Source: Nonlabens spongiae
GTDB taxonomy: Bacteria > Bacteroidota > Bacteroidia > Flavobacteriales > Flavobacteriaceae
Direction of reading: 5' to 3'
DNA length: 64,000 nt
NCBI RefSeq assembly: GCF_002117125.1
Contig: NZ_CP019344.1
Span: forward strand, 3,093,501-3,157,500
This document shows, in pieces, positions 3,997 to 63,542 of the stretch (the stretch's first letter is position 1; the number at the start of each line of letters is the position of its first letter). The position numbers and the translations under genes were made by a program. The notes beneath the pieces were generated by a model. It had not been told where the DNA came from and did not search any database. It worked only from the letters and a program-made list of their open reading frames with translations.

Positions 3997-6810
3997 CTAA
4001 GATAGTTTTTCTGCGATAAATGGTGCTGTAAAGCTTTGCTCGACTTGTGCAACCTCCTCCGGTGTGCCACTTGCGATGAGATGGCCACCTAGTTTCCCGC
4101 CTTCAGTTCCTAGATCAATTATATAATCAGCACATTTAACAAGGTCCATATTATGCTCAATAACGATTATGGAATGACCATTTTCAATGAGTGCATTAAA
4201 ACTACTCAAGAGTTTATTGATATCGTGGAAATGAAGACCGGTGGTAGGTTCATCAAATATAAACAAGGTCTTATCTGGCGTGTCTCCTTTTACTAAGAAA
4301 CTAGCCAATTTGATCCTTTGCGCTTCTCCACCAGACAATGTAGAGGAACTCTGGCCTAAGGTTACATAGCCCAGCCCCACATCTTGAAGTGGTTTCAGTT
4401 TTCTGATAATCTTGTTTTCCTTATGCTTCTGGAAAAACTCCATCGCATCGTTAATGGTCAGACTGAGTATGTCGTAAATATTGTGATCGTGAAACTTGAC
4501 TTCCAGAATTTCTTTCTTAAAGCGCTTACCCTGGCAGGTCTCACATAAGAGGGTAACATCAGCCATGAACTGCATCTCAATAGTGACCTCGCCCTCGCCC
4601 TTACAAGTCTCACACCTTCCTCCATCTACATTGAAACTAAAATGCTTTGCTTTATAATTTCTGATTTTAGAGATCTTCTGTTGTGCAAAAAGATTTCTGA
4701 TATCGTCATAAGCTTTGACATAAGTGACCGGATTGGATCTTGAGCTTTTACCTATGGGATTCTGGTCAATAAATTCTACAGACTTTAAATTCTCAAATTT
4801 TCCATTCAGTGACGTAAACTGCCCGGCCTTTTTGCCGTAGCCACCCAGCGACTTCAAAACTGCTGGATATAGAATATCTTTTACCAATGTCGATTTTCCA
4901 CTCCCTGAGACTCCCGTGATCATGGTCAGAACACCCAGCGGGAAACGCACATCAATATTCTTAAGATTGTTTTGACGTGCGCCCTTAATGTCTATATAAT
5001 ACTTATGCTTTCTACGCTTTCGCGGAAGCGGAATCTCCATAGACCCATTTAAATATTGAGCAGTTAATGAGTCTGAAGCTAGTATTTCACCCAGTGATCC
5101 AGCTGCTACGACTTCACCACCGTGTGTTCCCGCCTTAGGGCCTATGTCGATGATGGTATCTGCTGCCTGCATGATTTCCTCGTCATGCTCCACAACAATG
5201 ACCGTGTTGCCTAGATCCCGTAGATTTTTCAAGACTTTGATAAGTCTCGCCGTATCGCGAGGGTGTAAACCTATGCTGGGCTCGTCAAGGATGTACATAC
5301 TTCCCACTAGACTACTCCCCAGTGAAGTGGCTAGGTTGATACGCTGCGATTCACCTCCAGAAAGAGTGTTTGATTTGCGATTAAGAGTAAGGTAATTGAG
5401 TCCTACATCATTCAGGAACGATAATCTGCTGTTGATTTCAATAAGGAGACGGTGCGCGATTTTGGCATCATTTTCATCAAGTTTTAAGTCTGCAAAAAAT
5501 GGGGTGAGTTCACTAATAGGCAACATAACCAGCTCCGATATAGTAGTCCCGGCAATTTTTACGTAATCTGCTTCCTTGCGCAGGCGCGTTCCCCCACAAA
5601 GATTACATCTGGTCTTTCCTCGATAGCGAGAAAGCATGACGCGGTTTTGAATTTTGTAAGCTTTCGCTTCAAGCTCCTCAAAAAAGGCATCTAATCCATC
5701 AAAGTATTTATTTCCAGTCCAGACCAGTTTCTGTTGCTGGGCAGTCAATTCAAACCAAGGTCTGTGAATAGGAAAATCAAATTTATCGGCATGTTTGATC
5801 AACTGATTTTTATAGTAGGACATGCTCTCACCACGCCAAGGAAAAATGGCTTCTTCATAGATGCTGAGTCCTGTATTGGGAATGACTAGATCTTCATCAA
5901 TTCCTATCACATCGCCGTAGCCTTCACATTTAGGGCAGGCACCATAAGGATTATTGAAACTAAAAAGATGGGGATTGGGTTCTAGAAATTCCATCCCGTC
6001 CAGTTCAAACTTATTGCTGAACTCACGAGTGGCTGATCCGTCCAAGTGCTCAATAAAAGCTAAACCTTTACCTTCAAAAAAGGCTGTGTCGATCGCATCG
6101 GCTAGGCGGTTGTAAAAATCTTCTCCGTCACGTTTTATGATTCTGTCAACGACAAGACGGACCTGATCTGAATCTTTGATTTTGAGTTCCTCATCATCGA
6201 AACGCTTTACATCATCATTTACCTTAATTCTAGTATATCCCTGCTGCAACAGGACCTCTAGTTGTTCAGAAGTCTTTCTCTTACCTTTTACAATCAAGGG
6301 GGTGGTCAGTAACAATCGAGCACCTTCTTCCTGTTCCTTAATGTAGTTGACCACATCGGTAACCGTATCTTTTTTTACCAAATCACCGGAAACGGGAGAG
6401 TAGGTTTTGCCTATCCTGGCAAAAAGTAATTTCAAATAATCATAGATCTCAGTGGTTGTTCCCACCGTTGATCTGGGATTGGTACTGTTGACTTTTTGTT
6501 CAATGGCTATCGCAGGAGCAATACCTTTAATGTACTCTACCTTTGGTTTGTTCAGTCTGCCTAGGAATTGTCTGGCATAAGACGATAGACTTTCAACATA
6601 GCGACGTTGTCCTTCAGCGTAAAGAGTGTCAAAGGCAAGGGAAGATTTACCGCTGCCTGATAAGCCTGTAATTACCACTAGCTGATTACGAGGTATAACG
6701 GCATTTAGATTTTTGAGATTGTGAAGCGCAGCTCCTTTAATTAGAATGTTTTTCTTGGGACTAAGTACATCAATATCTTCAAAAATCATAGAGGTTCCAT
6801 TTAAGCGCAA
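3997..6810 (-). CDS. uvrA: Excinuclease ABC subunit A
   Basis: 937 residues, typical for UvrA, the damage-sensing ATPase of nucleotide excision repair. The first P-loop (GLSGSGKSS, about 49-57) and the second (GVSGSGKST) are present, as are both ABC signatures (LSGGESQR and LSGGEAQR). The CxxC pairs of the zinc modules (CPKCEGYG, CNLCGGTR, CETCKGEG, CETCQGKR) are visible. Met1 or Met8 (codon at 6789) could both be the start. A near-copy of the window's 16-bp palindrome (one mismatch) lies inside the gene at 5015-5030, where it encodes LPRKR in a linker before the second ATPase half. Confidence 0.96.
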   Translation of the reverse strand: MRLNGTSMIFEDIDVLSPKKNILIKGAALHNLKNLNAVIPRNQLVVITGLSGSGKSSLAFDTLYAEGQRRYVESLSSYARQFLGRLNKPKVEYIKGIAPAIAIEQKVNSTNPRSTVGTTTEIYDYLKLLFARIGKTYSPVSGDLVKKDTVTDVVNYIKEQEEGARLLLTTPLIVKGKRKTSEQLEVLLQQGYTRIKVNDDVKRFDDEELKIKDSDQVRLVVDRIIKRDGEDFYNRLADAIDTAFFEGKGLAFIEHLDGSATREFSNKFELDGMEFLEPNPHLFSFNNPYGACPKCEGYGDVIGIDEDLVIPNTGLSIYEEAIFPWRGESMSYYKNQLIKHADKFDFPIHRPWFELTAQQQKLVWTGNKYFDGLDAFFEELEAKAYKIQNRVMLSRYRGKTRCNLCGGTRLRKEADYVKIAGTTISELVMLPISELTPFFADLKLDENDAKIAHRLLIEINSRLSFLNDVGLNYLTLNRKSNTLSGGESQRINLATSLGSSLVGSMYILDEPSIGLHPRDTARLIKVLKNLRDLGNTVIVVEHDEEIMQAADTIIDIGPKAGTHGGEVVAAGSLGEILASDSLTAQYLNGSMEIPLPRKRRKHKYYIDIKGARQNNLKNIDVRFPLGVLTMITGVSGSGKSTLVKDILYPAVLKSLGGYGKKAGQFTSLNGKFENLKSVEFIDQNPIGKSSRSNPVTYVKAYDDIRNLFAQQKISKIRNYKAKHFSFNVDGGRCETCKGEGEVTIEMQFMADVTLLCETCQGKRFKKEILEVKFHDHNIYDILSLTINDAMEFFQKHKENKIIRKLKPLQDVGLGYVTLGQSSSTLSGGEAQRIKLASFLVKGDTPDKTLFIFDEPTTGLHFHDINKLLSSFNALIENGHSIIVIEHNMDLVKCADYIIDLGTEGGKLGGHLIASGTPEEVAQVEQSFTAPFIAEKLS
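5015..5030. repeat. Palindromic repeat copy, 1 mismatch, inside uvrA
   Basis: CGCTTTCGCGGAAGCG differs from the 16-bp consensus by one base. It encodes PRKR on the minus strand. Confidence 0.7.
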
Positions 6811-6993
6811 TCCACAAAGATAAAACGCGCGTAACCCGTATAATCTTAGTTACATCTATATAATTGTTAAAACTTCGAGGATTATTTTGTTCATTTGGAA
6901 TAAATGTTGTTATATTTAACCCGTTAAAAATTTCAAAAAATTCGTTTATAGTAACAACTCTACTCTAAAAGATCTATTTAATTCCAATTAACC

Positions 6994-7004
6994 AAGGAGA
7001 AGGG
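6994..7004 (+). promoter_or_regulatory. Unusually strong SD-like sequence before the sigma factor
   Basis: AAGGAGAAGGG is a clear Shine-Dalgarno-like run, rare in this window. It is 13 bases before a TTG codon (7018) and 22 bases before the ATG (7027). If it is used, it would favour the TTG; otherwise it is incidental. Confidence 0.4.
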
Positions 7005-7026
7005 TAGGTCATTCAAGTTGCTATTT

Positions 7027-7611
7027 ATGAAAAATGAAATGATTAAGGATGCTGCGCTGGTTAGTCAGTATCTAGATGGTAGTGAGTCTGCACTAGAAAC
7101 GCTTATCTACAGACACAAACAACGTATTTACAGTTTTATTTTCTCAAAGGTCCACGATCGTGACGTTACTGAAGATATTTTTCAGGACTGCTTTATTAAA
7201 GTGATCAAAACTTTGAAAAAGGGAAAATATAATGAAGAAGGAAAGTTCTTGCCCTGGGTAATGCGTATCGCACATAACCTTGTCATCGATCATTTTAGAC
7301 GTAATAAGCGCATGCCTAAATTCCAATCGCGCAATGACTTTGACATCTTCGACGTTATAAGTGATGGAGATTTAAGCAAGGAAGATGATATGATACTGGA
7401 TCAAGTTCACAAAGACGTGAAAAATTTGATCGACGAGTTGCCAGAGGATCAGAAAGAAGTTCTCACTATGAGAATTTATAAGGAAATGAGTTTTAAGGAA
7501 ATCGCTGAAGCGACAGACGTAAGCATCAATACAGCTTTAGGAAGAATGCGTTACGCCCTTATCAATATGAGAAAGGTGATTGATAAAAATAACATAATTC
7601 TTACCAGGTAG
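7027..7611 (+). CDS. RNA polymerase sigma factor, sigma-70/ECF family
   Basis: About 194 residues, ECF-sized. Region 2 is clear (LIYRHKQRIYSFIFSKVHD, then DIFQDCFIKV and the FLPWVMRIAHNLVIDHFRR segment), and so is the region 4 helix-turn-helix (LPEDQKEVLTMRIYKEMSFK followed by EIAEATDVSINTALGRMRYA). I chose the ATG at 7027; an in-frame TTG at 7018 is possible and lies better placed behind an SD-like run. No anti-sigma gene is adjacent; the next open frame is a 49-residue ORF. By family knowledge it directs transcription of a stress or envelope regulon; the signal cannot be told from the sequence. Confidence 0.92.
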   Translation: MKNEMIKDAALVSQYLDGSESALETLIYRHKQRIYSFIFSKVHDRDVTEDIFQDCFIKVIKTLKKGKYNEEGKFLPWVMRIAHNLVIDHFRRNKRMPKFQSRNDFDIFDVISDGDLSKEDDMILDQVHKDVKNLIDELPEDQKEVLTMRIYKEMSFKEIAEATDVSINTALGRMRYALINMRKVIDKNNIILTR

Positions 7612-7900: not shown

Positions 7901-8593
7901 TTATTTTTTTGAAGAGAGAATTTGATTATTTCGCTTTCGCGAAAGCGTTTTGTAGTAATCGTTCAGTACTGATTTTCTTCCCACCGTACTTGTTATAACA
8001 TCTTTGTTGAGATCCCAGCCTCGAGCAGGGCTGTATTCCCGACCATACCATATGATCTGTAGGTGCAAATCATTCCATTTGTGTTCTGGAAACAACCGTT
8101 TTGCGTCCCGCTCCGTTTGAACCACATTCTTACCGTTTGACAGATTCCAGCGGTACATAAGTCTATGAATGTGAGTGTCTACTGGAAATGCTGGTATCCC
8201 AAAAGCTTGAGACAAAACTACCGCAGCAGTTTTATGTCCCACAGCGGGCAACTCCTCGAGTTCCTCGTAGGTTTGAGGGACTGATCCATTGTGTCTCTCA
8301 ATCAGGATTTTTGACAATCCATGAATTCCCTTAGACTTCATGGGAGATAATCCCACTGGTTTGATGATTTCCCTTATCTCTTCAACACTTAACTTCACCA
8401 TGTCGTAGGGGTTGTCCGCTTTCGCGAAAAGTAACGGCGTGATCTGGTTCACACGTACATCAGTACTCTGTGCACTCATAAGTACTGCAATCAGTAAGGT
8501 GTAGGGATCTTTATGGTCTAAAGGAACAGGAATAGATGGATACAGTTCTTCCAGCTTATTTATGATAAATTCAACCTTTTCTGATTTGAGCAT
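7901..8593 (-). CDS. nth: Endonuclease III-like DNA glycosylase lacking the Fe-S cysteines
   Basis: 230 residues. The helix-hairpin-helix (ELPAVGHKTAAVV) carries the catalytic Lys121, and VDTHIHR carries the catalytic Asp139, so the bifunctional glycosylase/AP-lyase site of base excision repair is intact. The C-terminal 4Fe-4S loop normally has four Cys; here the region reads WYGREYSPARGWD and the whole protein has no cysteine. Cluster loss is known in some Nth relatives, so this is probably a cluster-free enzyme and not a broken one. Two palindromic repeat copies lie within the gene, coding FAKA near residue 57 and LSRKR near residue 218, the latter just before the stop. Confidence 0.93.
   Translation of the reverse strand: MLKSEKVEFIINKLEELYPSIPVPLDHKDPYTLLIAVLMSAQSTDVRVNQITPLLFAKADNPYDMVKLSVEEIREIIKPVGLSPMKSKGIHGLSKILIERHNGSVPQTYEELEELPAVGHKTAAVVLSQAFGIPAFPVDTHIHRLMYRWNLSNGKNVVQTERDAKRLFPEHKWNDLHLQIIWYGREYSPARGWDLNKDVITSTVGRKSVLNDYYKTLSRKRNNQILSSKK
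7932..7947. repeat. Palindromic repeat copy (perfect), 3' end of nth
   Basis: Perfect CGCTTTCGCGAAAGCG. It is read as LSRKR at the Nth C-terminus. Confidence 0.85.
8417..8430. repeat. Palindromic repeat copy (partial), inside nth
   Basis: CGCTTTCGCGAAAA keeps the first 13 bases of the consensus. It is read as FAKA in Nth. Confidence 0.6.
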
Positions 8594-11915: not shown

Positions 11916-12587
11916 CTAAATGCGCTCCTCCAGCCACTTTTTCATGTCATAGAAGTTGTCTCTCGCAACGCCATGACCCGCAGGATAATCTTTAAAAACA
12001 TAATCGGCGCGGGCTTCGTCCATGAGTGGAATGGCCTTTTTTGCCCAGTCAAAAGGTATCACTTGATCCATGGTTCCGTGACTTATGAAGTAGTTTGTGG
12101 GGTTCTCGCTTTCGCGAAAGCGTGCATTCAACCCTGCTCTGTCCTCAACAAGATCTTCGTTCACATAACCACTCATCGCAACTACGTTTTTGAACAAATT
12201 GGGATCTGAAAGACTCAAAGCGTAGGAGAGTATCGCACCCTGACTGAAACCGAGAATGTTCAAATTTTCAGGATCGATATCATAGGCAGTTTTGAGCTCA
12301 TCAACAAATGTTCTAATAAGCTGCATGCTCTTGCGAGCTTGATCCAAATCACTGAACTTACCACCAGCTGCATCAAAATTAATCGCATACCAAGCAGCTC
12401 CATAAGGCGGCAGGTCGTAAGGCGCTCTGGCGCTCACAATAAATATACCCTCATCCAGCTCTGGTGAGAAGGAAAAAAGATCATCCTCATTACTGCCGTA
12501 TCCATGCAATAGCAGGAGCAAAGGCGCGTTTTCTTGATTTGCAGGTCTTATACGATGTTGTAAACTTAAATTATTCGTGTCTGTCAT
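11916..12587 (-). CDS. Alpha/beta hydrolase, phospholipase/carboxylesterase family
   Basis: 223 residues. The nucleophile elbow GFSQG places Ser115; Asp174 (in GTMDQVIPFD) and His205 (in PAGHGVARD) complete the triad, and LLLLHGYGSNEDD holds the oxyanion hole. This matches the EstB/YpfH-like small carboxylesterases of the cytoplasm; the substrate is unknown. Its start overlaps the stop of the DUF4870 gene by 4 bases, so it is the last gene of a minus-strand operon running from the BatA-like gene. A perfect palindromic repeat in the reading frame encodes RFRES at about 156-160, between the elbow and the acid, in what is likely a surface loop. Confidence 0.93.
   Translation of the reverse strand: MTDTNNLSLQHRIRPANQENAPLLLLLHGYGSNEDDLFSFSPELDEGIFIVSARAPYDLPPYGAAWYAINFDAAGGKFSDLDQARKSMQLIRTFVDELKTAYDIDPENLNILGFSQGAILSYALSLSDPNLFKNVVAMSGYVNEDLVEDRAGLNARFRESENPTNYFISHGTMDQVIPFDWAKKAIPLMDEARADYVFKDYPAGHGVARDNFYDMKKWLEERI
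12107..12122. repeat. Palindromic repeat copy (perfect), inside esterase gene
   Basis: Perfect 16-bp copy, read as RFRES. Confidence 0.85.
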
Positions 12588-16138: not shown

Positions 16139-16909
16139 TTACAACTCTCTAAATGCACCTAATCCGAAAAGTGCAAAATCATATTTTACGGGATCTTCAG
16201 GATCCATTTTCCGCAGTTGCTTGTCCAGTTCAGCGACGGCCTTTGCGTCGTTTTGTTTGCGTTTGAGCAACTTCAATTTACGCGCGATGTTACCGGTATG
16301 TACATCCAGCGGTAAAGAAAGCGCTGAAGCCGGGATGCTGTCCCAAATCCCAAAATCCACACCCGCAAGATCTTTCCTCACCATCCATCGCAAAAACATG
16401 TTGATGCGTTTTGCGCTGCTCCCCTTCAGCGGATCGCTCACGTGTTTCTGCGTGCGTTTCTCGTGATCAATTTCAAAGAACAGCTGTTTAAAACTCGAGA
16501 TGCCTGCCTGTAGGTCGCTGTTGTTTGAATGGTACGCTTTCGCGAAAGCGGACTCCAGACCAGCATGGTTCTTATAAATGTTTTGTAGGGCTCGCATAAA
16601 AGTTCGACAATCCTGAGCGTTGAACGTGCGGTGCACAAAGCCTTCAAACCGATCCAGATCTGTAGGCTCGTGGTTCTTGATGAAGTCTGCCGGTGCGTGA
16701 TCCATGAGTTCCATCCATTTGTGGGCGTTGTTGATGATGGATTTGCGGTTGCCCCAAGAAATCGTGGCGATCAAAAAGCCCGAGATCTCAATATCTTCCT
16801 TGCTGGTAAATAGGTGCGGGATCTGAATGGGATCATGGGGGATAAAGTCTGGCACGTTGTACTGCAGCACCTTTGCGTCGAGAAATTCCTTGAGTTCGGC
16901 TTTTTTCAA
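16139..16909 (-). CDS. TIGR02757 family protein
   Basis: 256 residues, the family's usual length. The N-terminal block (KVLQYNVPDFIPHDPIQIPH), the SWGNRKSI motif and the HTGNIARKLKLLKRKQND segment are characteristic. Sequence hints (helical, a DVHTG motif like VDTH of the HhH glycosylases) make a DNA-repair-like fold plausible, but no function is established to my knowledge. A perfect palindromic repeat in the gene encodes AFAKA near residue 121. About 75 bases separate it from the BatA-like gene. Confidence 0.88.
   Translation of the reverse strand: MKKAELKEFLDAKVLQYNVPDFIPHDPIQIPHLFTSKEDIEISGFLIATISWGNRKSIINNAHKWMELMDHAPADFIKNHEPTDLDRFEGFVHRTFNAQDCRTFMRALQNIYKNHAGLESAFAKAYHSNNSDLQAGISSFKQLFFEIDHEKRTQKHVSDPLKGSSAKRINMFLRWMVRKDLAGVDFGIWDSIPASALSLPLDVHTGNIARKLKLLKRKQNDAKAVAELDKQLRKMDPEDPVKYDFALFGLGAFREL
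16535..16550. repeat. Palindromic repeat copy (perfect), inside TIGR02757 gene
   Basis: Perfect 16-bp copy, read as AFAKA. Confidence 0.85.
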
Positions 16910-18093: not shown

Positions 18094-20556
18094 TTAAGAA
18101 TTACTGCTGAACCATGATCTCGCCTGATTCACATCGAGAAAGTAGGTGATGCGTAACGAGAAATTATGGCGTATGGGGTTGTCAAACAAGTTGCTCACAC
18201 TGTCTACGTAACTAATCTGCCCTTGTTTATCAAAGTTGTTTGCAGCGTTGCGATATAAAAAAGTCGCTTCACTTCCCGGTGCAAACCTCCAGCGGTAAGA
18301 GAAATCTAGATTCCAGACATTGAAATTTGCATCTGGATTTTCATCGTCCTGTAGAGCAAAATCACTTTCTGTGGTAGTACCATCATTTGTGAGCTCCTCA
18401 AATTCACGACTGAAATTTGCCCTAGACCAATTGTTCCTAAACGAAAGGCTCAGCGCATGTCTGTTATTGAAATTGTAGGTTCCACTGATGCGATTCTCTA
18501 CTGTATGAGTGTTTCTCAAGCTGAGTATGCTGTTACTCCCATCATCAGTCCTGGTGACGTAACTCAGACGATTATTGTTTTTACGCCACTGATAAGTATA
18601 GACTAATAAAAACTCATCACTGAATCGATACCTAGGTGACAAGCGATAGTCATAACTTGTTTCAGGATCGTCGATACGTGAGAAGTAGCCAGCACGGGCA
18701 TCGATAGCAAATTTTTTCCTATAGTCACTAGAGATGAAGCCTCCCATATAATAACTGGGCGCGTAGCGCACGACTTGTCCTGGGATGCGTGATTCAAACT
18801 GATCTTTTTGCTCTGTATTATATTGAAAATCTCCACCAAAACTAAATCGTTCCACTGTCGCAAAAAATGGGTTCAGCGTGATGTCTGATCCAGTGTGAAA
18901 ACTAGGTGTTAACGCACGGCGGTGTCTCACCCTTAGCTCAATTTCATAGTAATTGAAGATGCCTTGCTGGGTTTGTTGCAAATAACTCAAATCAGATGCC
19001 AGAGTAAGATAATTAGTCTGGAATTGACGCCCTAAATCATTCGGATTATAAGAATCACCCACCCAGAATGCGCCTAAACGTGGTCGCCACTTACCAGTTG
19101 TTCTGCGCCATTGAGCCTCGCCGGCATAACCAGTTTCTGTACCGTCTGGGGTGAAACGGTTGCTCATTTGCAAAAGACCTCGATAATTATCACTGGCCTT
19201 TTTATTATTATGATTAAGTTCGAGTGCAGTGACATTTGCATCAGTAAAAGAACCGTTGCGCAATGTGCTCGCATTTGATAAGGCGATAGACGAGTTGTTA
19301 CCGTACTGCTGATCTAGTACCAGCATGTTATAGTTTGTCAATGGTTCAGTGAGTACATTTCTAGTAGCTCCACTTTCAGAATTTCTTATGGTGGCTTCTG
19401 TGCGTTCTGTGATTGCATTTAGGACACCTATTCCTAGGCCTCCGTCAGTTCTTCCTGTAAATTTCAAAGCGTTGAGTAAATTGGCTGTAGAAGGATTGTC
19501 TATAATGTCTTCATTATCCAGCGTTTCGATACGTCCCGCACCGGTGGGAGTCTGGCCTATACGGCGTGAGAAGAAAATATCTCCCTTACTAAAAAGGTCT
19601 GCACCCTCTATAAAAAATGCGCGGTTCTCCCCAAAAGTTTGCTCAAATGGACCTAAATTCAATTCAACTCGATCAAAAGCTACCTGCCCAAAGTCAGGGA
19701 TCAGTGTCGCATCAAGGGTAAATGCGTCACTTATCCCATATTTCAAGTCCATTCCAGCTGAAAATGTGAGTTCTTCTTCACCGTCAAATACATTATAAAC
19801 TACCTGGCTAAAAGGATAAAGGTTTAAACGAAGTGGTGGATCAATATTTTCAACACCAGTAAGCAGTGCATCGTACTGCGTTTGATTTCCCGTAGTGATG
19901 TCTATAAAATTGTAGGAATAATCTTCGTTGAGGTGACGTATCCTACGTACTACTTGAAAACTCCAGTCCTGAACTTCATTTTCCGGGAACCTCAAAGTTC
20001 TATAAGGGATTTCCATCTCAACATACCAGCCGTTTTCATCTATGGTTGATTCTGAAAGGAATACTACATTGAAACTAAAATCTTGGCGGTCACCCTCTAC
20101 GATAGCATCACCTAGGGCATTTCCAGAAGTAGCAAAGAAACGGGTCTGATTGATCTGATTGTTGTAGGTGTTGATATGGAATTCAAAGAGATCTGCCTGT
20201 ACAAAGACGTTGTCACGTTGGGAGAACTGTCTTAAAATGCGCTCCGGCTCATTATCATACATATAACCTGCGACATAAAGAGCGTTATCATCGTAGGCAA
20301 TTTTTACTTTGGTTTTATGAGTGTCTCGTTCCGGTTCACCGTTGCGAGGTTCACGCATGACAAAGTTTTTGGCGACCGGTATCTTGTTCCAGAATGCTTC
20401 AAAAGGTTTACCATCAATTACAGGACTTGTAGCGACTCTTGTTGCTGAGTATACCTTACGTTTTATTAATAGTGTGCTGTCTTCTTGTTGTAGGTTCGCT
20501 TTCGCGAAAGCGATATTAAAAAGTACTAATAAAAAGGAAAATAACTGTCGATTCAT
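18094..20556 (-). CDS. Outer-membrane protein with CBM9-like domain and DUF5916 barrel
   Basis: 820 residues. A signal peptide (about 1-20) leads to a carbohydrate-binding family 9-like sandwich (about 38-230, with SPVIDGKPFEAFW and DDNALYVAGYMYDNEPERI), then a DUF5916 region of amphipathic strands rich in aromatic residues to the C-terminus, the look of an outer-membrane beta barrel (EQTFGENRAFFIEG is a typical motif). Unknown substrate; the CBM9 module suggests glycan contact. A perfect palindromic repeat overlaps the coding sequence for the signal peptide and is read as IAFAKA right at the predicted cleavage site. Confidence 0.9.
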   Translation of the reverse strand: MNRQLFSFLLVLFNIAFAKANLQQEDSTLLIKRKVYSATRVATSPVIDGKPFEAFWNKIPVAKNFVMREPRNGEPERDTHKTKVKIAYDDNALYVAGYMYDNEPERILRQFSQRDNVFVQADLFEFHINTYNNQINQTRFFATSGNALGDAIVEGDRQDFSFNVVFLSESTIDENGWYVEMEIPYRTLRFPENEVQDWSFQVVRRIRHLNEDYSYNFIDITTGNQTQYDALLTGVENIDPPLRLNLYPFSQVVYNVFDGEEELTFSAGMDLKYGISDAFTLDATLIPDFGQVAFDRVELNLGPFEQTFGENRAFFIEGADLFSKGDIFFSRRIGQTPTGAGRIETLDNEDIIDNPSTANLLNALKFTGRTDGGLGIGVLNAITERTEATIRNSESGATRNVLTEPLTNYNMLVLDQQYGNNSSIALSNASTLRNGSFTDANVTALELNHNNKKASDNYRGLLQMSNRFTPDGTETGYAGEAQWRRTTGKWRPRLGAFWVGDSYNPNDLGRQFQTNYLTLASDLSYLQQTQQGIFNYYEIELRVRHRRALTPSFHTGSDITLNPFFATVERFSFGGDFQYNTEQKDQFESRIPGQVVRYAPSYYMGGFISSDYRKKFAIDARAGYFSRIDDPETSYDYRLSPRYRFSDEFLLVYTYQWRKNNNRLSYVTRTDDGSNSILSLRNTHTVENRISGTYNFNNRHALSLSFRNNWSRANFSREFEELTNDGTTTESDFALQDDENPDANFNVWNLDFSYRWRFAPGSEATFLYRNAANNFDKQGQISYVDSVSNLFDNPIRHNFSLRITYFLDVNQARSWFSSNS
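20497..20512. repeat. Palindromic repeat copy (perfect) in the signal peptide of the DUF5916 gene
   Basis: Perfect 16-bp copy, read as AFAKA, where it supplies the end of the signal peptide. Confidence 0.85.
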
Positions 20557-23539: not shown

Positions 23540-23555
23540 CGCTTTCGCGAAAGCG
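23540..23555. repeat. Palindromic repeat copy (perfect), intergenic upstream of ppa
   Basis: Perfect 16-bp copy in the ppa upstream region. Confidence 0.85.
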
Positions 23556-26995: not shown

Positions 26996-27011
26996 CGCTT
27001 TCGCGAAAGCG
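26996..27011. repeat. Palindromic repeat copy (perfect), between convergent genes
   Basis: Perfect 16-bp copy in the 47-base gap between the convergent MFS gene and the next gene. Confidence 0.85.
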
Positions 27012-29030: not shown

Positions 29031-29873
29031 TTGTCAAAATACAAACACAAACACTCAAAAAAATCGTTTGATAAAGGCGTTCAGGCAAAGAAACATCTAG
29101 GTCAGCATTTCCTCAAAGATGAAGGCGTGGCGTTGCGTATCGCAGACTGTTTGAGTTATAAAGGTTATGATCAGGTACTTGAAATAGGTCCCGGTACAGG
29201 TGTTTTGACAAAGCACGTTTTGCGCAAAAATATCAAGGTCACTGCGATGGAACTGGATAGTGAGTCTGTCGTTTATTTGAAACACAGTTTCGGGCTAGAG
29301 CATCCCAAGATCGTTAGCCCAAAGACTTTTGAGGTGATAGAAGCTGACTTCCTTAAAGAAGATCTTTCTGAAATCTATGGAGATCGAAGTTTTGCGATTA
29401 TAGGCAACTTCCCCTACAATATTAGTACGCAAATTGTTTTTAAGGCGCTGGAATATAGAGACCAGGTCATTGAATTCGGTGGTATGTTTCAAAAAGAGGT
29501 TGCTCAACGCATTTGTGCACCACATGGTTCAAAAACCTATGGAATTCTATCTGTTTTGTCTCAAGCTTACTATGACGCTGAATATTTGTTCACCGTAAAA
29601 CCTGGAGTGTTTAATCCACCGCCCAAGGTGGATAGTGGAGTGTTACTGCTTTCGCGAAAGCAAGACTACAACAATCTACCCTGCTCTTATCAAACGCTAA
29701 GCAGAGTTGTAAAACTAGCCTTTCAACAAAGGCGTAAAACTTTACGTAATTCATTGAAATCGCTTAATCTGCCTGATGGATTGCGGGAAGACAAAATTTT
29801 TGATTTAAGACCAGAACAAATTAGTGTTGAAGACTTTATTGGGTTAGCTGCGCGCATAGAGAAACTATCCTGA
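29031..29873 (+). CDS. ksgA: 16S rRNA dimethyladenosine transferase (RsmA/KsgA)
   Basis: 280 residues with a TTG start; no nearer in-frame ATG leaves the conserved N-terminus [12 protein letters not shown] intact. The SAM motif [12 protein letters not shown] and the catalytic motif [11 protein letters not shown] (NFPY in place of NLPY) are present. It dimethylates two adjacent adenines near the 3' end of 16S rRNA, a late ribosome assembly step. A near-perfect palindromic repeat lies inside the gene (29647-29662), read as LSRK. Confidence 0.92.
29647..29662. repeat. Palindromic repeat copy (TGCTTTCGCGAAAGCA), inside ksgA
   Basis: The inner 14 bases match the consensus; the outermost C:G pair is replaced by T:A, so it stays palindromic. 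Confidence 0.75.
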
Positions 29874-31308: not shown

Positions 31309-31324
31309 CGCTTTCGCGAAAGCG
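31309..31324. repeat. Palindromic repeat copy (perfect), downstream of mgtE
   Basis: Perfect 16-bp copy in the intergenic region, 18 bases after the mgtE stop. Confidence 0.85.
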
Positions 31325-36924: not shown

Positions 36925-37887
36925 TTAAGCGAGGCTTACTCTCTTAAATCCTACTACGTCAGCATTTTTTGAGTCTACATACTCAGCGACCGTTTTCTTA
37001 TCGTCCATGATGAAGTTTTGGTCAAGCAAAGCTTGTTCTTTATCAAGAGAAGAGTTGTCTGCGATGTAACGATCAATCTTTCCAGGAATGATGCGATCCC
37101 AGATTTTTTCTGGTTTACCTTCATCGGCAAGTTCTTTTTCAAATCTCGCTTTCGCGGAAGCGATAGCATCATCAGTCAACTGTGATCTAGAGATAAACTC
37201 TGGTACGTTTTTAAGAGGTTTGCCCAAACGTCCCAACTCGATATTATCTTTCTCGATAGCAGCGATACGAGCCTCAGTCTCAGCTTGTACATATGCTGGG
37301 TCAAAATCTTTGTAAGAAAGGGTAGTGGCACCCATAGAAGCAACCTGCATTGAAACAGATTTTGCCACTTCTTCTTGATTCTCGCTATTTGTAGAAAGAC
37401 CAGTTAAAGCACCGATTTTGTTACCGTGTACATAACCGCCTACAAATGGTGCCTCTAATACTTCAAAACCACCTATCTCAAGTTTTTCACCTATTACTCC
37501 AGTCTGCTCAGTAAGCTTTTCTTCAACCGTCATATCACCTAGTGATGCAGAAAGAAGTTCTTCTTTAGAGTTGCACTCGATAGCTTTATCACCTATCTGG
37601 TTTGCAAGCTCTACATAAGAGTCATTCTTTGCAACGAAGTCAGTCTCACAGTTCAGAGAGAAAACAACACCTCTCGTGTTATCATCATTGATCTTTGCAA
37701 CAACAACACCCTCAGCAGTCTCACGGTCAGCACGCTTAGCAGCTACCTTTTGACCTTTTTTTCTAAGGATCTCGATTGCTTTATCAAAATCACCTTCAGC
37801 TTCTACGAGGGCTTTTTTACAGTCCATCATACCAGCACCGGTGGTCTTTCTCAATTTACCTACGTCAGCAGCAGATATTTTAGCCAT
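36925..37887 (-). CDS. tsf: Translation elongation factor Ts
   Basis: 320 residues. The N-terminal UBA-like helix bundle (KISAADVGKLRKTTGAGMMD) and the EF-Tu-contacting motif TDFVAKN are present. It catalyses GDP/GTP exchange on EF-Tu. It is 37 bases after rpsB in the standard rpsB-tsf operon. Near residue 246 a one-mismatch palindromic repeat copy encodes ASAKA. Confidence 0.97.
   Translation of the reverse strand: MAKISAADVGKLRKTTGAGMMDCKKALVEAEGDFDKAIEILRKKGQKVAAKRADRETAEGVVVAKINDDNTRGVVFSLNCETDFVAKNDSYVELANQIGDKAIECNSKEELLSASLGDMTVEEKLTEQTGVIGEKLEIGGFEVLEAPFVGGYVHGNKIGALTGLSTNSENQEEVAKSVSMQVASMGATTLSYKDFDPAYVQAETEARIAAIEKDNIELGRLGKPLKNVPEFISRSQLTDDAIASAKARFEKELADEGKPEKIWDRIIPGKIDRYIADNSSLDKEQALLDQNFIMDDKKTVAEYVDSKNADVVGFKRVSLA
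37147..37162. repeat. Palindromic repeat copy, 1 mismatch, inside tsf
   Basis: CGCTTTCGCGGAAGCG, read as ASAKA. Confidence 0.7.
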
Positions 37888-42452: not shown

Positions 42453-42468
42453 CGCTTTCGCGAAAGCG
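42453..42468. repeat. Palindromic repeat copy (perfect), between TonB-like gene and egtB
   Basis: Perfect copy in the intergenic gap upstream of egtB. Confidence 0.85.
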
Positions 42469-43377: not shown

Positions 43378-43393
43378 TGCTTTCGCGAAAGCG
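43378..43393. repeat. Palindromic repeat copy (15 of 16 bases), intergenic
   Basis: TGCTTTCGCGAAAGCG, one outer base changed. Confidence 0.75.
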
Positions 43394-48905: not shown

Positions 48906-48930
48906 ATTTCTAAAATTTTGTTTGTGGTTT

Positions 48931-48952
48931 TCTCGCTTTCGCGAAAGCGAGA
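48931..48952. repeat. Palindromic repeat copy (perfect, extended to 22 bp), between etfB and etfA
   Basis: The 16-bp consensus at 48934-48949 has an extra TCT/AGA pair of arms. It lies in the coding gap of an operon. Confidence 0.85.
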
Positions 48953-48975
48953 TCTTTTACAATCTACTTATTTGA

Positions 48976-51189: not shown

Positions 51190-51205
51190 CGCTTTCGCGA
51201 AAGCG
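51190..51205. repeat. Palindromic repeat copy (perfect), intergenic
   Basis: Perfect 16-bp copy between pdhB and the DUF5686 gene. Confidence 0.85.
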
Positions 51206-53832: not shown

Positions 53833-53848
53833 CGCTTTCGCGAAAGCG
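53833..53848. repeat. Palindromic repeat copy (perfect), between DUF5686 gene and hppA
   Basis: Perfect 16-bp copy, 27 bases after the DUF5686 stop. Confidence 0.85.
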
Positions 53849-56548: not shown

Positions 56549-57811
56549 CTACATCGATTCTTTCAAAATCTCGACAAACTTATAGCAATCTAAAAAGCTA
56601 TTATATAAAGGAACAGGCGCAATCCTTATAACGTCGGGTTCTCGCCAGTCTGCAATCACTCCCTTTTCGGTAATTGTTTCAAATAAACTTTTATCTGCAT
56701 CTTTAACGGCAAGCGAGAGTTGACAGCCTCGGTCTTTTGTTTCAGTAGGAGTGATGATCTCAATGCGATCCCCCTCCATTTCATGCAATAAGTACTCAAG
56801 GTAAGATGTCAAATGAATAGATTTTGCTCTTAGGTTTTCAAAACCAGCCTCCTTAAATATATCGAGACTACTTTTTATTGCTGCCATACTCAAAATAGGC
56901 GGATTGGATAATTGCCAGCCTTCAGCACCGTAGATCGGGTCAAAATCATCACGCATGCCAAAACGGGTTTCTTTATTATGTCCCCACCATCCTGTAAAAC
57001 GAGGTAAGTCCAAATTTTGTGCGTGACGCTCATGAACAAAGCAGCCACCTAAACTTCCCGGGCCTGAATTGAGATACTTATAAGTACACCATACTGCAAA
57101 ATCTGACCCAGAGTCATGTAAGTTTAGCGGAGCGTTACCAGCACCGTGAGCGCAATCAAATCCCACTAGGCAACCTTGCTTATGTCCTAGTTCTGTAATC
57201 TTTTTGAGATTAAAAAATTGACCCGTATAGTAATTAACGGCTCCTATCATTATAAGAGCTATCTCATCACCGTGCTTATTCAAGATTTCTTCTAGATCTG
57301 AAATGCGAGGTGTATGTTCATCTTCTCTAGGTTTCCAGGTGATTAGATCAGTTTCTGGATCACCGCCATGGAATTGAATCTGCGAGGCAACAGCAAATCG
57401 GTCGCTAGGGAAGGCATCTGCCTCAATTAAGATTTTACGTCGTTGACCTTTTGGTTGGTAGAAACTGACCATCAGCAGGTGAAGGTTGGTGGTCAAGGTA
57501 TTCATCACCACGACCTCGTGAGTTTTCGCGCCGACTATTTCTGCGGTAGTTTCTGCAAGGTTTTCGTGATAGGGCATCCAGGGATTCATCGCCTCAAAGT
57601 GTCCTTCCACGCCTAATGTTGCCCAGTCGTCCAGCTCTTGATTGATGTACTCTTTGGTTTGTTTAGGTTGAAGCCCTAGAGAGTTCCCACAGAAATAAAT
57701 ACTTTCTTCTCCATTTTTCTGTTTTGGAATGTGGAAGCTTTCGCGAAAGCGAGATAAATCATCACTCTTATCCAGTTCTAAAGCAAATTCCCTTGTATTC
57801 TTAAACTGCAT
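56549..57811 (-). CDS. kynU: Kynureninase
   Basis: 420 residues, normal for the enzyme. The PLP Lys is in WCTYKYLNSGPG; the substrate block IYFCGNSLGLQPKQTKEY and GWWGHNKETRFGMRDDF are also typical. It cuts kynurenine to anthranilate and alanine in tryptophan degradation or NAD synthesis. It lies 2 bases after the lipoprotein gene on the same strand. A palindromic repeat copy in the N-terminal part encodes SRFRES. Confidence 0.94.
   Translation of the reverse strand: MQFKNTREFALELDKSDDLSRFRESFHIPKQKNGEESIYFCGNSLGLQPKQTKEYINQELDDWATLGVEGHFEAMNPWMPYHENLAETTAEIVGAKTHEVVVMNTLTTNLHLLMVSFYQPKGQRRKILIEADAFPSDRFAVASQIQFHGGDPETDLITWKPREDEHTPRISDLEEILNKHGDEIALIMIGAVNYYTGQFFNLKKITELGHKQGCLVGFDCAHGAGNAPLNLHDSGSDFAVWCTYKYLNSGPGSLGGCFVHERHAQNLDLPRFTGWWGHNKETRFGMRDDFDPIYGAEGWQLSNPPILSMAAIKSSLDIFKEAGFENLRAKSIHLTSYLEYLLHEMEGDRIEIITPTETKDRGCQLSLAVKDADKSLFETITEKGVIADWREPDVIRIAPVPLYNSFLDCYKFVEILKESM
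57736..57751. repeat. Palindromic repeat copy (15 of 16), inside kynU
   Basis: AGCTTTCGCGAAAGCG, read as RFRES. Confidence 0.75.
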
Positions 57812-58577: not shown

Positions 58578-59861
58578 GTGGAACAAAAATTTGTACAAAA
58601 AGGATCGTTAAGCAAGAGGCGTAAGTATTCTATCATCATGGTATTAGGGACATTAATTGCCATAGGACCATTTTCTATAGACGCCTATCTACCTGCCTTT
58701 AAGCAGATCGCTGGTGATTTCAATGTTGATACTAGCGATATAGGGTTAACCTTAACCACTTACTTTATAGGTATAGGATTGGGACAACTGGCCTACGGAC
58801 CACTCATGGATCGCTATGGACGGCGCAAACCGCTCATAGTAGGTCTGATTCTGTATATCACCACAAGTATCATGAGTGCATTTGCATGGGATGTGTTGTC
58901 TCTTGCGACATTACGTTTCTTTACCTCACTCGGTGCCTGTGCGGGAATGGTTGCCAGCAAGGCGATAGTCCGTGACTTGTTTGAAAAAGAAGATGTTGCA
59001 GATGTGCTTTCAACTCTCATGCTTATCATGGGAATTGCGCCTATCATTGCGCCTACGATAGGAGGTTTTGTAATCGCAAACTTCCATTGGGACTGGATAT
59101 TTTATGGATTAGCAGCATTTGCATTTTTGATGCTCTTAAATGTTTTGTTTATTCTCCCAGAAAGTTCAAAGCCCAATACAACAACGAGTTTACATCCCGT
59201 TCCCGTGCTTAAAGAGTATTTTGAAATATATCGCAATCACGACTTTTTCCTGTTCTCAACAGCAAGGGGCTTTGTAATAGGGTTGTTGTTAGGCTATGTT
59301 GCGGCTGCCCCTTTTATATTCATGGACTACTTTGGCCTATCTCAAGAACAGTTCGGTTATGTGTTTGGGAGCAATGCGGCGGGACTCATCGCAGGGAGTC
59401 AGGTAAACAGATTGTTTTTGAAAAAGTACACTACTTTTCAGGTAACCTACGTGGTAAGTGTATTATTGGTACTGGTGTCTGGGGCTGGACTACTATTTGC
59501 AAGTATGGGATGGATGGAATTTTGGGTGATCTATCCGCTTCTGTTTGCCATGCTCACGCTCATCGGTTTTCAGAATCCTAACGTAACTGCATTATCCCTT
59601 CAGCCATTTACTAAGAAAGCTGGTAGTGCCAGTGCGTTTGTGGGGGCGATAAGCATGATTTTTGGCTCGTTTGCGAGTTGGTACGTTTCGCATTTTTTGA
59701 AAACTGAACTATTTCCGTTATTTCTGATGCTTGCCTTCTCAGCCATTTTTGCTCATATTGCTGTAGAAGTATATCGTAAGAAGTTTGCTCATGGTTACGC
59801 TTTCGCGAAAGCTTACCTAGAACACCATCAGCACAACGATAAAAGGCAACATTCTAGTTAA
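58578..59861 (+). CDS. Bcr/CflA-type multidrug efflux MFS transporter
   Basis: 427 residues with a GTG start; 12 helices. The helix-1 motif GPFSIDAYLPAFKQIAG and LAYGPLMDRYGRRKPL after helix 2 (MFS motif A) are diagnostic of the Bcr/CflA group, which exports bicyclomycin-like drugs or other small molecules with H+. Substrate unknown. A palindromic repeat copy near the 3' end encodes AFAKAY. Confidence 0.92.
   Translation: MEQKFVQKGSLSKRRKYSIIMVLGTLIAIGPFSIDAYLPAFKQIAGDFNVDTSDIGLTLTTYFIGIGLGQLAYGPLMDRYGRRKPLIVGLILYITTSIMSAFAWDVLSLATLRFFTSLGACAGMVASKAIVRDLFEKEDVADVLSTLMLIMGIAPIIAPTIGGFVIANFHWDWIFYGLAAFAFLMLLNVLFILPESSKPNTTTSLHPVPVLKEYFEIYRNHDFFLFSTARGFVIGLLLGYVAAAPFIFMDYFGLSQEQFGYVFGSNAAGLIAGSQVNRLFLKKYTTFQVTYVVSVLLVLVSGAGLLFASMGWMEFWVIYPLLFAMLTLIGFQNPNVTALSLQPFTKKAGSASAFVGAISMIFGSFASWYVSHFLKTELFPLFLMLAFSAIFAHIAVEVYRKKFAHGYAFAKAYLEHHQHNDKRQHSS
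59799..59814. repeat. Palindromic repeat copy (15 of 16), inside the MFS gene
   Basis: CGCTTTCGCGAAAGCT, read as AFAKA near the MFS C-terminus. Confidence 0.75.
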
Positions 59862-59898
59862 ATCCCTTTGGTGCTAGTTAAAGGTTGAGCTGTTATCT

Positions 59899-59914
59899 CG
59901 CTTTCGCGAAAGCG
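59899..59914. repeat. Palindromic repeat copy (perfect), intergenic
   Basis: Perfect 16-bp copy 85 bases from the preceding one. Confidence 0.85.
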
Positions 59915-59999: not shown

Positions 60000-60020
60000 T
60001 GTTTATGTAAATAAAAACTT

Positions 60021-60740
60021 ATGAAAAAGACCTTATATAGATCAAAAGATAGAGGATATGCAAACCATGGCTGGTTGGAGGCCAAACACTCATTTAGTTT
60101 CGCATCCTGGTTCAATCCAGAAAAAATGAATTTTGGGGTTCTCAGAGTTTTGAACGACGATCGTGTCGCGCCAGGTGCTGGGTTTCCCACGCATCCACAT
60201 GATAATATGGAGATAATTACTATACCGTTGTCTGGTGTTTTGGAACATAAGGACAGTATGGGTAATACTGCTCAAATAAGAACAGGCGAGGTCCAGGTGA
60301 TGAGCGCTGGCACAGGTGTCACTCATTCTGAATATAATGCAAGCGATTCAGAAGATCTCAGACTATTCCAGATATGGATCTTTCCCAATAAGCGTGGTGT
60401 AGAACCTAGATATGATCAGCAATTTATAGCTAAAGACCTGTCAAACGGTTGGCAACAAATAATATCTCCAGACAAAAGTGCAAGTAATATGTGGATACAT
60501 CAGGATGCATGGTTAAGTATGGGGCAAGTAGACCTTGGTAAATCGCTAACTTATAAAAGAAAAGGAAAAGAAACTGGCCTTTATCTCATGGTGATTGAGG
60601 GCGAGGTTAATATGGTAGATGAGAATCTTAAAAAGCGTGACGCCATCGGAATAGATTCTGCCGAGGAGATAACCATTCAAGCTGCAATAAATTCTAAGCT
60701 TTTACTTATTGAAGTACCTATGCAATTACCCCAATACTAA
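60021..60740 (+). CDS. Pirin family protein (YhhW-like)
   Basis: 239 residues, a double cupin. The N-terminal cupin holds the metal ligands in FPTHPHDNMEIITI and EVQVMSAGTGVTHSEYN; the sequence HSFSFASWFNPEKMNFGVLR is the family signature. Related proteins show quercetin dioxygenase activity or act as redox sensors. An overlapping operator-like palindrome precedes it, so expression is probably induced by a signal. Confidence 0.92.
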   Translation: MKKTLYRSKDRGYANHGWLEAKHSFSFASWFNPEKMNFGVLRVLNDDRVAPGAGFPTHPHDNMEIITIPLSGVLEHKDSMGNTAQIRTGEVQVMSAGTGVTHSEYNASDSEDLRLFQIWIFPNKRGVEPRYDQQFIAKDLSNGWQQIISPDKSASNMWIHQDAWLSMGQVDLGKSLTYKRKGKETGLYLMVIEGEVNMVDENLKKRDAIGIDSAEEITIQAAINSKLLLIEVPMQLPQY

Positions 60741-61047
60741 AAACGAACTCAACCAGATCGCAATTCAGTCTTTAGTAATGATCTGAAAACCTAAATTTTC
60801 GATCTGAAAATAGCTACAGTGCTCTTCAAAAGATTTAGGGACTGCAACTCAAGAATTTTCTACTATTATAGAATACCGTTTACCCAAGCATGGTAAGATA
60901 AATCTCTTTTTGTCAATTTACTTCATTAGATATATGTCCTGTGAATAAAAGTCTCCTCGAAAGGGTAGTGAGTGTAATTCAGGAGCTCCTTTTATAAACC
61001 CGCTGCTCCTCCCGCGTTAACATTAAAAATGAATGAGATTTACTAAT

Positions 61048-61072
61048 AGCCCCCTTCGGGGGTTTGGGGGCG
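61048..61072. repeat. GC-rich intergenic repeat, copy B
   Basis: Starts AGCCCCCTTCGGGGGTTTGG; the first half is itself a hairpin. It resembles elements at 31910 and 61197. Confidence 0.45.
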
Positions 61073-61196
61073 TAAAGCGTGGGTGTCTCCAGCTCGAGAC
61101 TCGCCTTCTCTTTGAATCTAGGTTTATCATATATCATCATGACTCATTATTCCAACCATCTTCCTTTCTGGGAAACATAGCACGATGTGCTTCAAA

Positions 61197-61220
61197 GACT
61201 CCTTCAGGGGGTTGAGGGCT
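61197..61220. repeat. GC-rich intergenic repeat, copy C
   Basis: Reads GACTCCTTCAGGGGGTTGAG plus GGCT; same core CCTTCAGGGGGTT. Confidence 0.45.
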
Positions 61221-61414
61221 ACTCTAAAATTGATGACCTGCAAATAATATAGTAGATCATACCCATTCCCAGATTGAAAGCAGTCCAGGGGCTGAATTTT
61301 CACTGTACAGGAATGCGCTGTAAAAAAGTTCGCTTTTTTTTGTGGTCTAAGTATCTAGTTTTTAGAGGGGTGGCTAAAGAAGTCAAAAAAACCTATAATT
61401 ATTTTGCAAAAAGT

Positions 61415-61447
61415 TTTGGTTGGAAAGAAATAGTGTCTGTATATTTG
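61415..61447 (+). promoter_or_regulatory. Likely rRNA operon promoter
   Basis: -33 box TTTG (61415-61418) and -7 box TATATTTG (61440-61447) are spaced 21 bases apart, matching the Bacteroidota sigma-A consensus. It is about 330 bases upstream of 16S and the strongest match seen in the window. Confidence 0.75.
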
Positions 61448-61771
61448 CACCCACTTAGCGAAACAACGATATGTTTTACGAGGCAGAAGTTCACTGGAAG
61501 GCTGGAATATCACAAGGGAAAACAAATTGAATTTTGTCCTTTTTGATTCTGGTTTTACAAGTTCCGGTAGAGGTTCATTGAGATATTGGTTGACAGCACA
61601 GTTCTGAGGATTCCCGTCCTAGATATATAGGCAGGGAAATCTTCAAGGTAAGAACAGCAATAATAAAGAAAGTATATAGAATAGACACGATATGTCGATC
61701 GGGTTGTCGTCATTTGAGGAGGTAGTGGGATCCTGTACAACAGATCTCATTGTTAAAACAAAAGAGACATC

Positions 61772-63298
<1,527 letters not shown>

Positions 63299-63444
63299 TG
63301 GAGTTCCTGAAATAACGGAACCAAGTAGAGAGGGATTCCATTGCCTTTTCCGCGACGCCCGATCGGCGTGTTTATTTTAAAAGCTTTCGATTAAGGAGGC
63401 GCTGTCAATTAAGATCTTGGGTCCGCCACGGGTGGTCCACATAG

Positions 63445-63518
63445 AGTCTCGTAGCTCAGCTGGTTAGAGCGCTACACTGATAATGTAGAGGTCGGCAGTT
63501 CGAGTCTGCCCGAGACTA
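63445..63518 (+). tRNA. tRNA-Ile (anticodon GAT)
   Basis: 74 nt cloverleaf in the 16S-23S spacer. Acceptor AGTCTCG pairs with CGAGACT; the anticodon loop CTGATAA has GAT at 63479-63481; the T loop is TTCGAGT. No encoded CCA. Confidence 0.95.
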
Positions 63519-63526
63519 CTGTTTTA

Positions 63527-63542
63527 CGCTTTCGCGAAAGCC
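63527..63542. repeat. Palindromic repeat copy (15 of 16) between the spacer tRNAs
   Basis: CGCTTTCGCGAAAGCC, inside the transcribed rRNA spacer, 8 bases after tRNA-Ile. Confidence 0.75.

Follow-up and report, generated by a model that had tools for sequence, protein, structure and literature searches.

Introduction

DNA-uptake sequences are the closest described counterparts of the element reported here, a 16-bp palindrome, CGCTTTCGCGAAAGCG, dispersed in the genome of the flavobacterium Nonlabens spongiae. The palindrome was noticed, in a sequence-only reading, in a stretch of 64,000 nucleotides of contig NZ_CP019344.1 (positions 3,093,501 to 3,157,500), referred to below as the window. For the uptake signal sequence (USS) of Haemophilus, passages of PMC7811141 state that AT-rich flanks contribute to uptake, that a relatively even spread is expected from uptake-driven drive, and that USS are scarce in newly acquired segments and in constrained coding sequence. 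In a competition assay described in an excerpt of PMC7965970, Riemerella columbina showed a preference for its own DNA; the candidate k-mers of the authors were left untested and a motif was not established. Homologues of four transformation genes of R. anatipestifer are stated in a portion of PMC8459023 to be widespread in Flavobacteriaceae.

Searches of 5.39 million open-access papers returned no occurrence of CTTTCGCGAAAG or of longer strings, and TTTCGCGAAA alone occurs in ten papers that are unrelated by title. Among the matches listed, no title or abstract start contains a description of the motif, subscription journals, supplements and preprints lying outside the scope of this search. 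A survey of repetitive extragenic palindromes (REPs; PMC12306157) includes Flavobacterium species among its genomes, and neither Dokdonia nor Nonlabens occurs in its main text.

The palindrome in the window and in the genome

The window contains 21 copies of CGCTTTCGCGAAAGCG at up to three mismatches (13 perfect, six with one mismatch, one with two and one with three), compared to a mean of 0.13 copies and a maximum of one in 100 dinucleotide shuffles. The earlier count of about 21 copies was thereby confirmed: 20 of the 21 coordinates that it quoted are exact, 59799 should read 59798, and the extension to 22 bp described for two copies (39899 and 48931) is present at both. The 14-bp core, GCTTTCGCGAAAGC, occurs 779 times in the genome of the source strain (G000; 3,393,235 bases in two contigs), which corresponds to one copy per 4.36 kb, while the reversed control sequence occurs 0 times. 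Nor are the copies confined to the window. All of the 20 stretches of 20 kb sampled every 160 kb carry them, with two to seven 14-mers each (mean 4.25, variance/mean 0.57), as do 23 of 23 genomes of the genus (Flavobacteriaceae), which contain 288–857 core copies each. Genomes of this kind are called motif-rich below. Copy density in the 20 sampled stretches showed no pattern relative to the origin or terminus of replication, and a segregation signal arranged in that way, one of the functions suggested in the sequence-only reading, was not borne out.

Copies avoid each other

The copies repel each other. The first 100 listed 14-mers are separated by a mean gap of 4.2 kb with a coefficient of variation (CV) of 0.60, which falls to 0.42 when the two largest gaps are left out; random points give 0.99 ± 0.10, and 0 of 20000 random sets had a value as low as that observed. 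With up to two mismatches allowed, the CV in a 464-kb sample was 0.53 vs 0.98 under a null that kept the mix of coding and intergenic copies (lowest of 1000, 0.73), and intervals shorter than 1 kb made up 6.6% of 91, compared to 27% under the null. Contiguous runs of five further motif-rich genomes (G206, G299, G307, G316 and G317) contained 0 of 232 intervals below 1 kb, where 19–24% would be expected; three of 18 were found in an added 60-kb run of G299. The pooled set of 269 intervals includes six below 1 kb. In this set the hazard of meeting the next copy is 0.015/kb at 0–0.5 kb and 0.61–0.65/kb at 5–6.5 kb, with noisy values of 0.29–0.80 beyond, i.e. the next copy is about 40-fold less likely within 500 bp than at 5–6.5 kb. 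Genome G190 is sparser, with eight sites in 100 kb.

The larger of the two outlier gaps (20 kb) has no copies inside, and the other (13 kb) contains two copies with one or two mismatches. The motif-free 20-kb stretch L266 (G000:C1:284100-304099), with a copy at its very edge only, carries two letter-identical transposase genes of the IS110 family of insertion sequences (IS), located ~14 kb apart; between them lie genes for a helix-turn-helix protein, a tetratricopeptide repeat protein and a PF00144-family protein. In the 13-kb gap, mobile genes were not recognised among the two proteins scanned.

An extended dyad in genes and gaps

The conserved pattern reaches well beyond the palindrome (48917..48966, the core with ~17 bp per side, is an example of its extent). 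Read outward, the arms contain 1–8% G at positions +3 to +12, compared to a background of 18%, and G stays mostly below background to about +28. The A content is 69% at +2, 66% at +3, 60% at +9, 53% at +11 and 56% at +12, and C reaches 43% at +14 (308 sites, orthologues included, with both arms profiled together). In the genome of the source strain the profile is alike for coding and intergenic copies. Similar arms surround the copies of G206, of an uncultured Dokdonia (L060) and of the second contig of the source strain; they are somewhat weaker in the putatively moved genes and viral contigs described below, and weaker still in G190 (8 sites).

At 235 pooled sites, the two sides show no co-variation at any one arm position from +1 to +14 (z −1.7 to 1.6). 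Of these sites, 33 have a palindrome that continues for at least 3 bp per side, vs 21 with shuffled arms, 11 of 2000 shuffles being as high. Orthologues and the mixing of species may account for this pooled excess; in the source genome alone, such an extension is present at nine of 87 sites vs 8.5 expected. Judged from its letters, the ~50-bp dyad looks more like a protein footprint than a long hairpin.

The 464-kb sample contains 112 copies at up to two mismatches. Called genes account for 71 of these and the gaps for the other 41; the genes were called with our own simple model (coding fraction 0.84), in which some starts and small genes will be wrong. This amounts to 0.18 copies per kb of gene and ~0.6 per kb of gap, an about threefold higher density between genes. 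The copy rate in gaps is independent of gene orientation: 37 copies in gaps flanked by genes comprise six in 48 divergent gaps, six in 39 convergent gaps, and 12 (of 87) and 13 (of 111) in tandem ones. The 71 genic copies are read as AFAKA (45), RFRES (16) or LSRK (10).

Transcription terminators or another gene-end signal would fit the denser occurrence between genes and the small pooled excess of extended palindromes. However, the majority of copies inside called genes, the rate in divergent gaps, which equals that of other gaps, and the lack of any single co-varying arm position leave this explanation almost no credibility, and it was rejected; the earlier view that the copies extend beyond gene ends and are more than terminators was correct.

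Methyltransferase sites are usually far shorter than 16 bp plus arms, which makes a palindrome associated with methylation or restriction, in the manner of the cyanobacterial HIP1, quite improbable, even though the motif is palindromic, abundant and present in genes and gaps. HIP1 has been linked to orphan methyltransferases in PMC4390886; in the main text of that paper, neither Bacteroidetes nor Flavobacteri- occurs. The HIP1 sequence itself, GCGATCGC, has 0 copies in the window.

The symmetry of the dyad also bears on a Chi-like or other self-mark that would be read by a recombination or repair nuclease and would protect or activate DNA. A local benefit of each site would favour even spacing, and the density of Chi in E. 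coli is near one per 4.36 kb. Known Chi sequences, however, are short, asymmetric and strand-biased, whereas the motif is a palindrome of 14–16 bp, its own reverse complement, with symmetric arms that follow one pattern. We regard this explanation as improbable.

Conservation and origin in place

Sites are retained far more faithfully than their surroundings. In G299 and G307, which are 95.4% identical over 208.7 kb, the aligned perfect sites agree in 48 of 49 and in 48 of 51 cases, compared to ~47% expected had the core drifted like its surroundings. At seven sites both genomes have a one-mismatch copy, and the mismatch is the same in each. For G316 and G317 (90.3%) the values are 22 of 27 and 22 of 32, with ~20% expected. 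The core mismatch is 0.2% vs ~4.5% nearby in the first pair and 1.9% vs ~9–10% in the second, rates for which the sites were chosen in one species, a choice that favours low values. Fourteen sites carry a single-base difference between G316 and G317, which is at the outermost base in 10, and one further site differs by a 2-bp deletion; over all stretches, the mismatch of one-mismatch copies is at the outermost base in 56 of 81. In a comparison of all pairs among 21 species, 436 of 1640 site-by-pair tests were alignable and 306 of the 436 had a perfect motif, even with poorly alike flanks, although the motif itself aids the aligner where flanks diverge.

Individual loci illustrate this conservation. 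The 70-bp gap between etfB and etfA, which carries the perfect copy 48934..48949 in the window, is occupied by the motif in 21 of 21 species examined within the genus (18 perfect, three with one mismatch), and the proteins encoded beside it are 77–88% identical to those of the source genome. The gene of a DUF5686 protein has an intergenic perfect copy on either side in the window (51190..51205 before it and 53833..53848 after it), and in none of the 21 species are the preceding and the following gap both without a site; we do not claim a compensatory relocation between these gaps. A perfect copy is located upstream of rplM in the source genome (39902..39917, at a distance of 188 bp) and in G299, G302 and the uncultured Dokdonia L060 (190–248 bp). 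The corresponding copy in G206 has two mismatches, and none was found in G242, G010, G190, five motif-poor relatives or Kordia.

A perfect motif is present in the etfA genes of both G206 and G190, at identical codon positions, where it encodes the peptide ASAFAKAIA. The source genome encodes ASAYAKAIA at this position, and five motif-poor relatives encode AYADA, AYADV, AYASA or AYAEI without a gap. Because the etfA motif thus replaces a similar peptide without a gap, the motif appears to arise by point changes at places where the existing peptide is already close to a fit. The G206 and G190 genes are 71% identical, no closer than to others, and their sharing of the etfA site would reflect convergence, or old common descent followed by losses.

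The abundance of the palindrome had been ascribed to selection or active spreading. Selection or another active process is upheld by these data, while spreading by copying and insertion is not, as the differences between copies, where compared, are mainly point substitutions in place. This applies in particular to a mobile REP-like palindrome spread by a REP-associated tyrosine transposase (RAYT, Y1 type). Such an element would also be a short palindrome in many copies, and other small elements are mobile into the motif (see below), but of 23 motif-rich genomes searched, seven (G299, G304, G305, G307, G314, G317 and G190) gave no match to PF01797 (E ≤ 0.001). The source genome has nine PF01797 matches. 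REPs are clustered, whereas the copies of the motif avoid each other, and the 71 genic copies are contrary to an extragenic location. A RAYT origin is very unlikely and was rejected.

Small elements inserted into the core

Small palindromes of 20–21 bp (CCTGCCTGCCGGTCAGGCAGG and variants) are located inside the motif in G299 and G307. Their insertion point is exactly CGCTTTCGCG^AAAGCG in 10 of 11 cases and one base further in the remaining one. A loose scan of 220 kb per genome identified six such elements in G299 and five in G307, all within the motif; its few other hits are not the element. At three sites and one more, the insert is present in one of these two species while the other has an uninterrupted motif. 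Genome-wide, the left junction of the insert occurs 30 times in G299, 35 times in G307 and 13 times in G305, compared to 0–2 times in the rest. The Y1 transposase was not found in these three genomes. Unrelated elements of 24–48 bp lie at the insertion point or within one base of it in G310, G313 and the source genome. The loci with inserted elements are L226, L228, L229, L234 and L235 (G299), L237–L239, L244 and L245 (G307), L210, L224 and L054. The point between stem and loop of the 16-mer is a precise insertion target, or a fragile point, for elements of more than one family (20–48 bp). The insertions themselves are what is observed; something may open the DNA at this point, or the formation of a hairpin may invite insertion.

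A further palindrome, TCCCGATAGCTATCGGGA (up to three mismatches), adjoins a half-copy of the motif in five of its 10 occurrences in 478 kb of the source genome (L046:4373, L047:3709, L052:6292, L052:16538 and L057:2709).

Distribution among relatives

In a family sample of 299 genomes from 236 genera, five genomes of three genera are motif-rich: three of the genus of the source strain (779, 578 and 664 copies), G190 (408) and G206 (857). G190 and G206 are each the sole examined member of their genus. Of the remaining genomes, 56 have 1–19 copies and 238 have none. In a phylum sample of 395 genomes, the maximum in the 394 other than the source genome, 40 of which belong to the same family, is six copies. 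A search with EF-Ts, which may have left out nearer records, identified the uncultured Dokdonia L060 as the closest named relative (73% identity in the best segment), with eight 14-mers in 21 kb; the other 79 loci kept from this search, some of them short, contain no copy at up to two mismatches.

In a tree of 45 EF-Ts sequences, G206 pairs with the uncultured Dokdonia (support 100/99). The genus of the source strain stands beside this group, with the motif-poor G144 and G087 between them on branches below the mark of the tool, and G190 is placed apart from them, in a marked clade close to Salegentibacter and Christiangramia. The motif-rich label requires three changes on this tree, two of which are forced by marked branches. 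The number of gains and losses is uncertain, because the tree rests on one gene.

Where motif-poor genomes have copies, these are clustered in one region. Eight of the stretches concerned (L031–L038, seven genomes) were read, and the genes at the clustered copies are, presumably, those of RND and cation-diffusion metal efflux, Fur and a P-type ATPase-like protein; AFAKA was seen in several of the printed protein starts. These metal-efflux-like stretches probably represent DNA moved from motif-rich donors, with the motif as a possible mark of the donor. An idea that the clustered copies mark parS or oriC was dropped, as the motifs are in or beside metal-efflux-like genes.

In five motif-poor genomes, a pair of copies is separated by exactly 933 bp, and in those read both copies are inside one TolC-like gene. 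The exact 16-mer is also present on 41 stretches of IMG/VR viral contigs (L140–L180), some with several copies; these contigs may be phages of motif-rich hosts or mislabelled bacterial DNA.

A candidate uptake sequence

In our reading, to which we assign a probability of roughly one half, the palindrome is the central part of a recognition sequence of the uptake type, and transmission bias has led to its accumulation. A protein that handles incoming DNA would bind the ~50-bp dyad, i.e. the near-invariant centre of 14–16 bp and its G-poor, A/C-rich arms, and motif-bearing DNA would be taken up or recombined more often. An allele that comes to match the motif by point mutation would spread through the population along with its surroundings, and copies would build up where they are tolerated, in gene gaps and in peptides close to AFAKA or FRES. 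Accumulation would cease within ~1.5 kb of an existing copy, as a fragment from that region would be marked already, and one copy per fragment would in turn produce the even spacing of ~4 kb.

The abundance, spacing, footprint and conservation of the motif, its in-place replacement in etfA and its absence from one IS-flanked island are observed; the bias would act at DNA uptake or recombination. Transmission bias on the site-bearing fragment would explain the conservation, the saturation at one copy per fragment, the permissive peptides and the lack of copies in the island without any advantage to the cell. The sequence-only reading had suggested a resemblance to HIP1 or to a DNA-uptake signal, and an uptake-type sequence fits best, given the even spacing, extended flanks, permissive frames and the IS110-flanked island. 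ComEC was found in 30 of 30 genomes searched, which permits an uptake model without supporting it.

Several results weigh against an uptake sequence. ComEC is equally present in motif-poor genomes. A receptor was sought near comEC in 12 genomes, and no cluster shared by at least two motif-rich genomes is missing from the poor ones; in the comEC neighbourhood of the source genome only comEC is common to the rest. The proteins printed near comEC are, by their look, what we take to be POT transporter-, thioredoxin-, DPP-IV- and LpxB-like. The model also predicts that DNA close to the sites is less diverged, for which the outcome was mixed: third-position divergence near the sites (60–600 bp) and far from them (1.5–4 kb) is 0.103 and 0.121 for G299 and G307 (74 of 2000 circular shifts as extreme) and 0.235 and 0.233 for G316 and G317 (1130 of 2000), and a predeclared replicate, shortened to 60 kb, gave 0.127 vs 0.142 (511 of 2000). 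Insertion of small elements exactly at the core is not predicted by the uptake model, and the strong evenness also suits a protein of the chromosome.

In the latter case, the dyad would be bound or cleaved throughout the genome by a chromosome-organising protein (a nucleoid protein, a Noc/MatP-like protein or, at strong sites, a type II topoisomerase), and its even spacing would shape the nucleoid or distribute the relaxation of supercoils. The ~50-bp footprint, the very even spacing and the near-invariant core are all consistent with such a protein, and the 4-nt stagger of type II topoisomerases coincides with the usual insertion junction, CGCTTT^CGCG. The second contig of the source strain (C2; 13,959 bases), possibly a plasmid, also has two perfect copies, which are separated by 3.4 kb and flanked by the usual arms (L205:2457 and 5848); a plasmid search with C2 gave matches in three records only, at a coverage of 1–2%. 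Even spacing is treated as a mark of compaction signals in a passage of PMC1939737. However, each of ~800 sites, coding frames included, would need its own selective advantage, the 20 sampled stretches show no gradient from origin to terminus, and the scatter of motif-rich genera among poor ones on the single-gene tree would be surprising for a basic structural role. A candidate protein was not found, the Noc, ParB and MatP families not having been searched. We consider a chromosome-organising site possible but doubtful.

If the motif is an uptake sequence, transmission bias would have placed the same 16-mer, at one-per-fragment spacing, in at least three flavobacterial lineages split by motif-poor relatives, sometimes at the same etfA codons, and we tentatively suggest, without holding it likely, that one receptor was shared or passed between genera. 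It would be, to our knowledge, the first uptake sequence of the Bacteroidota and the first to be read as a dyad. These flavobacteria would then filter incoming DNA by a genus-level password, and a motif-bearing gene would betray its origin, as in the metal-efflux-like stretches of otherwise motif-poor genera. The motif would also provide a direct assay for competence in Bacteroidota and a bait for the receptor. Should it be the mark of a chromosome protein instead, the density and regularity of the array would be unusual. Any explanation has to account for the spacing rule, the footprint and the origin in place, all of which are measured.

Other copies in the window

Besides the copies near rplM, etfA and the DUF5686 gene, five perfect copies are intergenic (23540..23555, 26996..27011, 31309..31324, 42453..42468 and 59899..59914), as is one with a single mismatch (43378..43393). 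Another copy with one mismatch (63527..63542) is located between the genes of tRNA-Ile and tRNA-Ala, downstream of the 16S rRNA gene. Perfect copies lie inside an endonuclease III-like (nth-like) gene, close to its 3' end (7932..7947), a carboxylesterase-like gene (12107..12122, frame RFRES) and a DUF2400/TIGR02757 gene (16535..16550, frame AFAKA); one more (20497..20512) lies at the start of a DUF5916 gene as called, the start codon being uncertain. The nth-like gene also holds the degenerate copy with three mismatches (8417..8432). Copies with one mismatch were found inside uvrA (5015..5030), tsf, the gene of EF-Ts, where the copy encodes IASAKAR (37147..37162), a kynureninase gene (57736..57751, frame RFRES) and, close to its 3' end, a gene of the Bcr/CflA family of the major facilitator superfamily (59798..59813). 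The copy in rsmA/ksgA (29647..29662) has two mismatches, at outer bases.

Comparison with known systems

The motif resembles the Haemophilus USS and the Neisseria DNA uptake sequence (DUS) in its hundreds to thousands of copies, its one dominant core, its presence in genes and gaps and its relatively even spread. For USS, the passages of PMC7811141 also describe AT-rich contributing flanks and underrepresentation in newly acquired segments, to which the A/C-rich arms and the one motif-free, IS110-flanked stretch may correspond. USS and DUS, however, are directional 9–12-mers that occur about once per 1 kb, whereas the core described here is palindromic and longer, with two symmetric arms, and occurs once per ~4 kb, with a stricter spacing, in the phylum Bacteroidota. 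HIP1 of cyanobacteria is likewise a highly iterated palindrome found in genes and gaps and concentrated in certain lineages; the present motif is twice as long and differs from it by the extended footprint, the spacing rule and the phylum.

REPs and bacterial interspersed mosaic elements (BIMEs), which are associated with RAYT, are also short palindromes in many copies. Unlike them, the motif is evenly spaced, is often inside genes and shows substitution in place, and no Y1 transposase was found in seven motif-rich genomes. The parS, Noc and matS sites are similar in being dyads of ~14–16 bp bound by dimers, but the motif has ~800 sites, no pattern relative to origin or terminus was seen, and its core sequence is different. 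New in this analysis are the repulsion between copies, the ~50-bp dyad with A/C-rich arms, the near-invariant sites, the in-place replacement in etfA, and the failure of the RAYT and terminator explanations.

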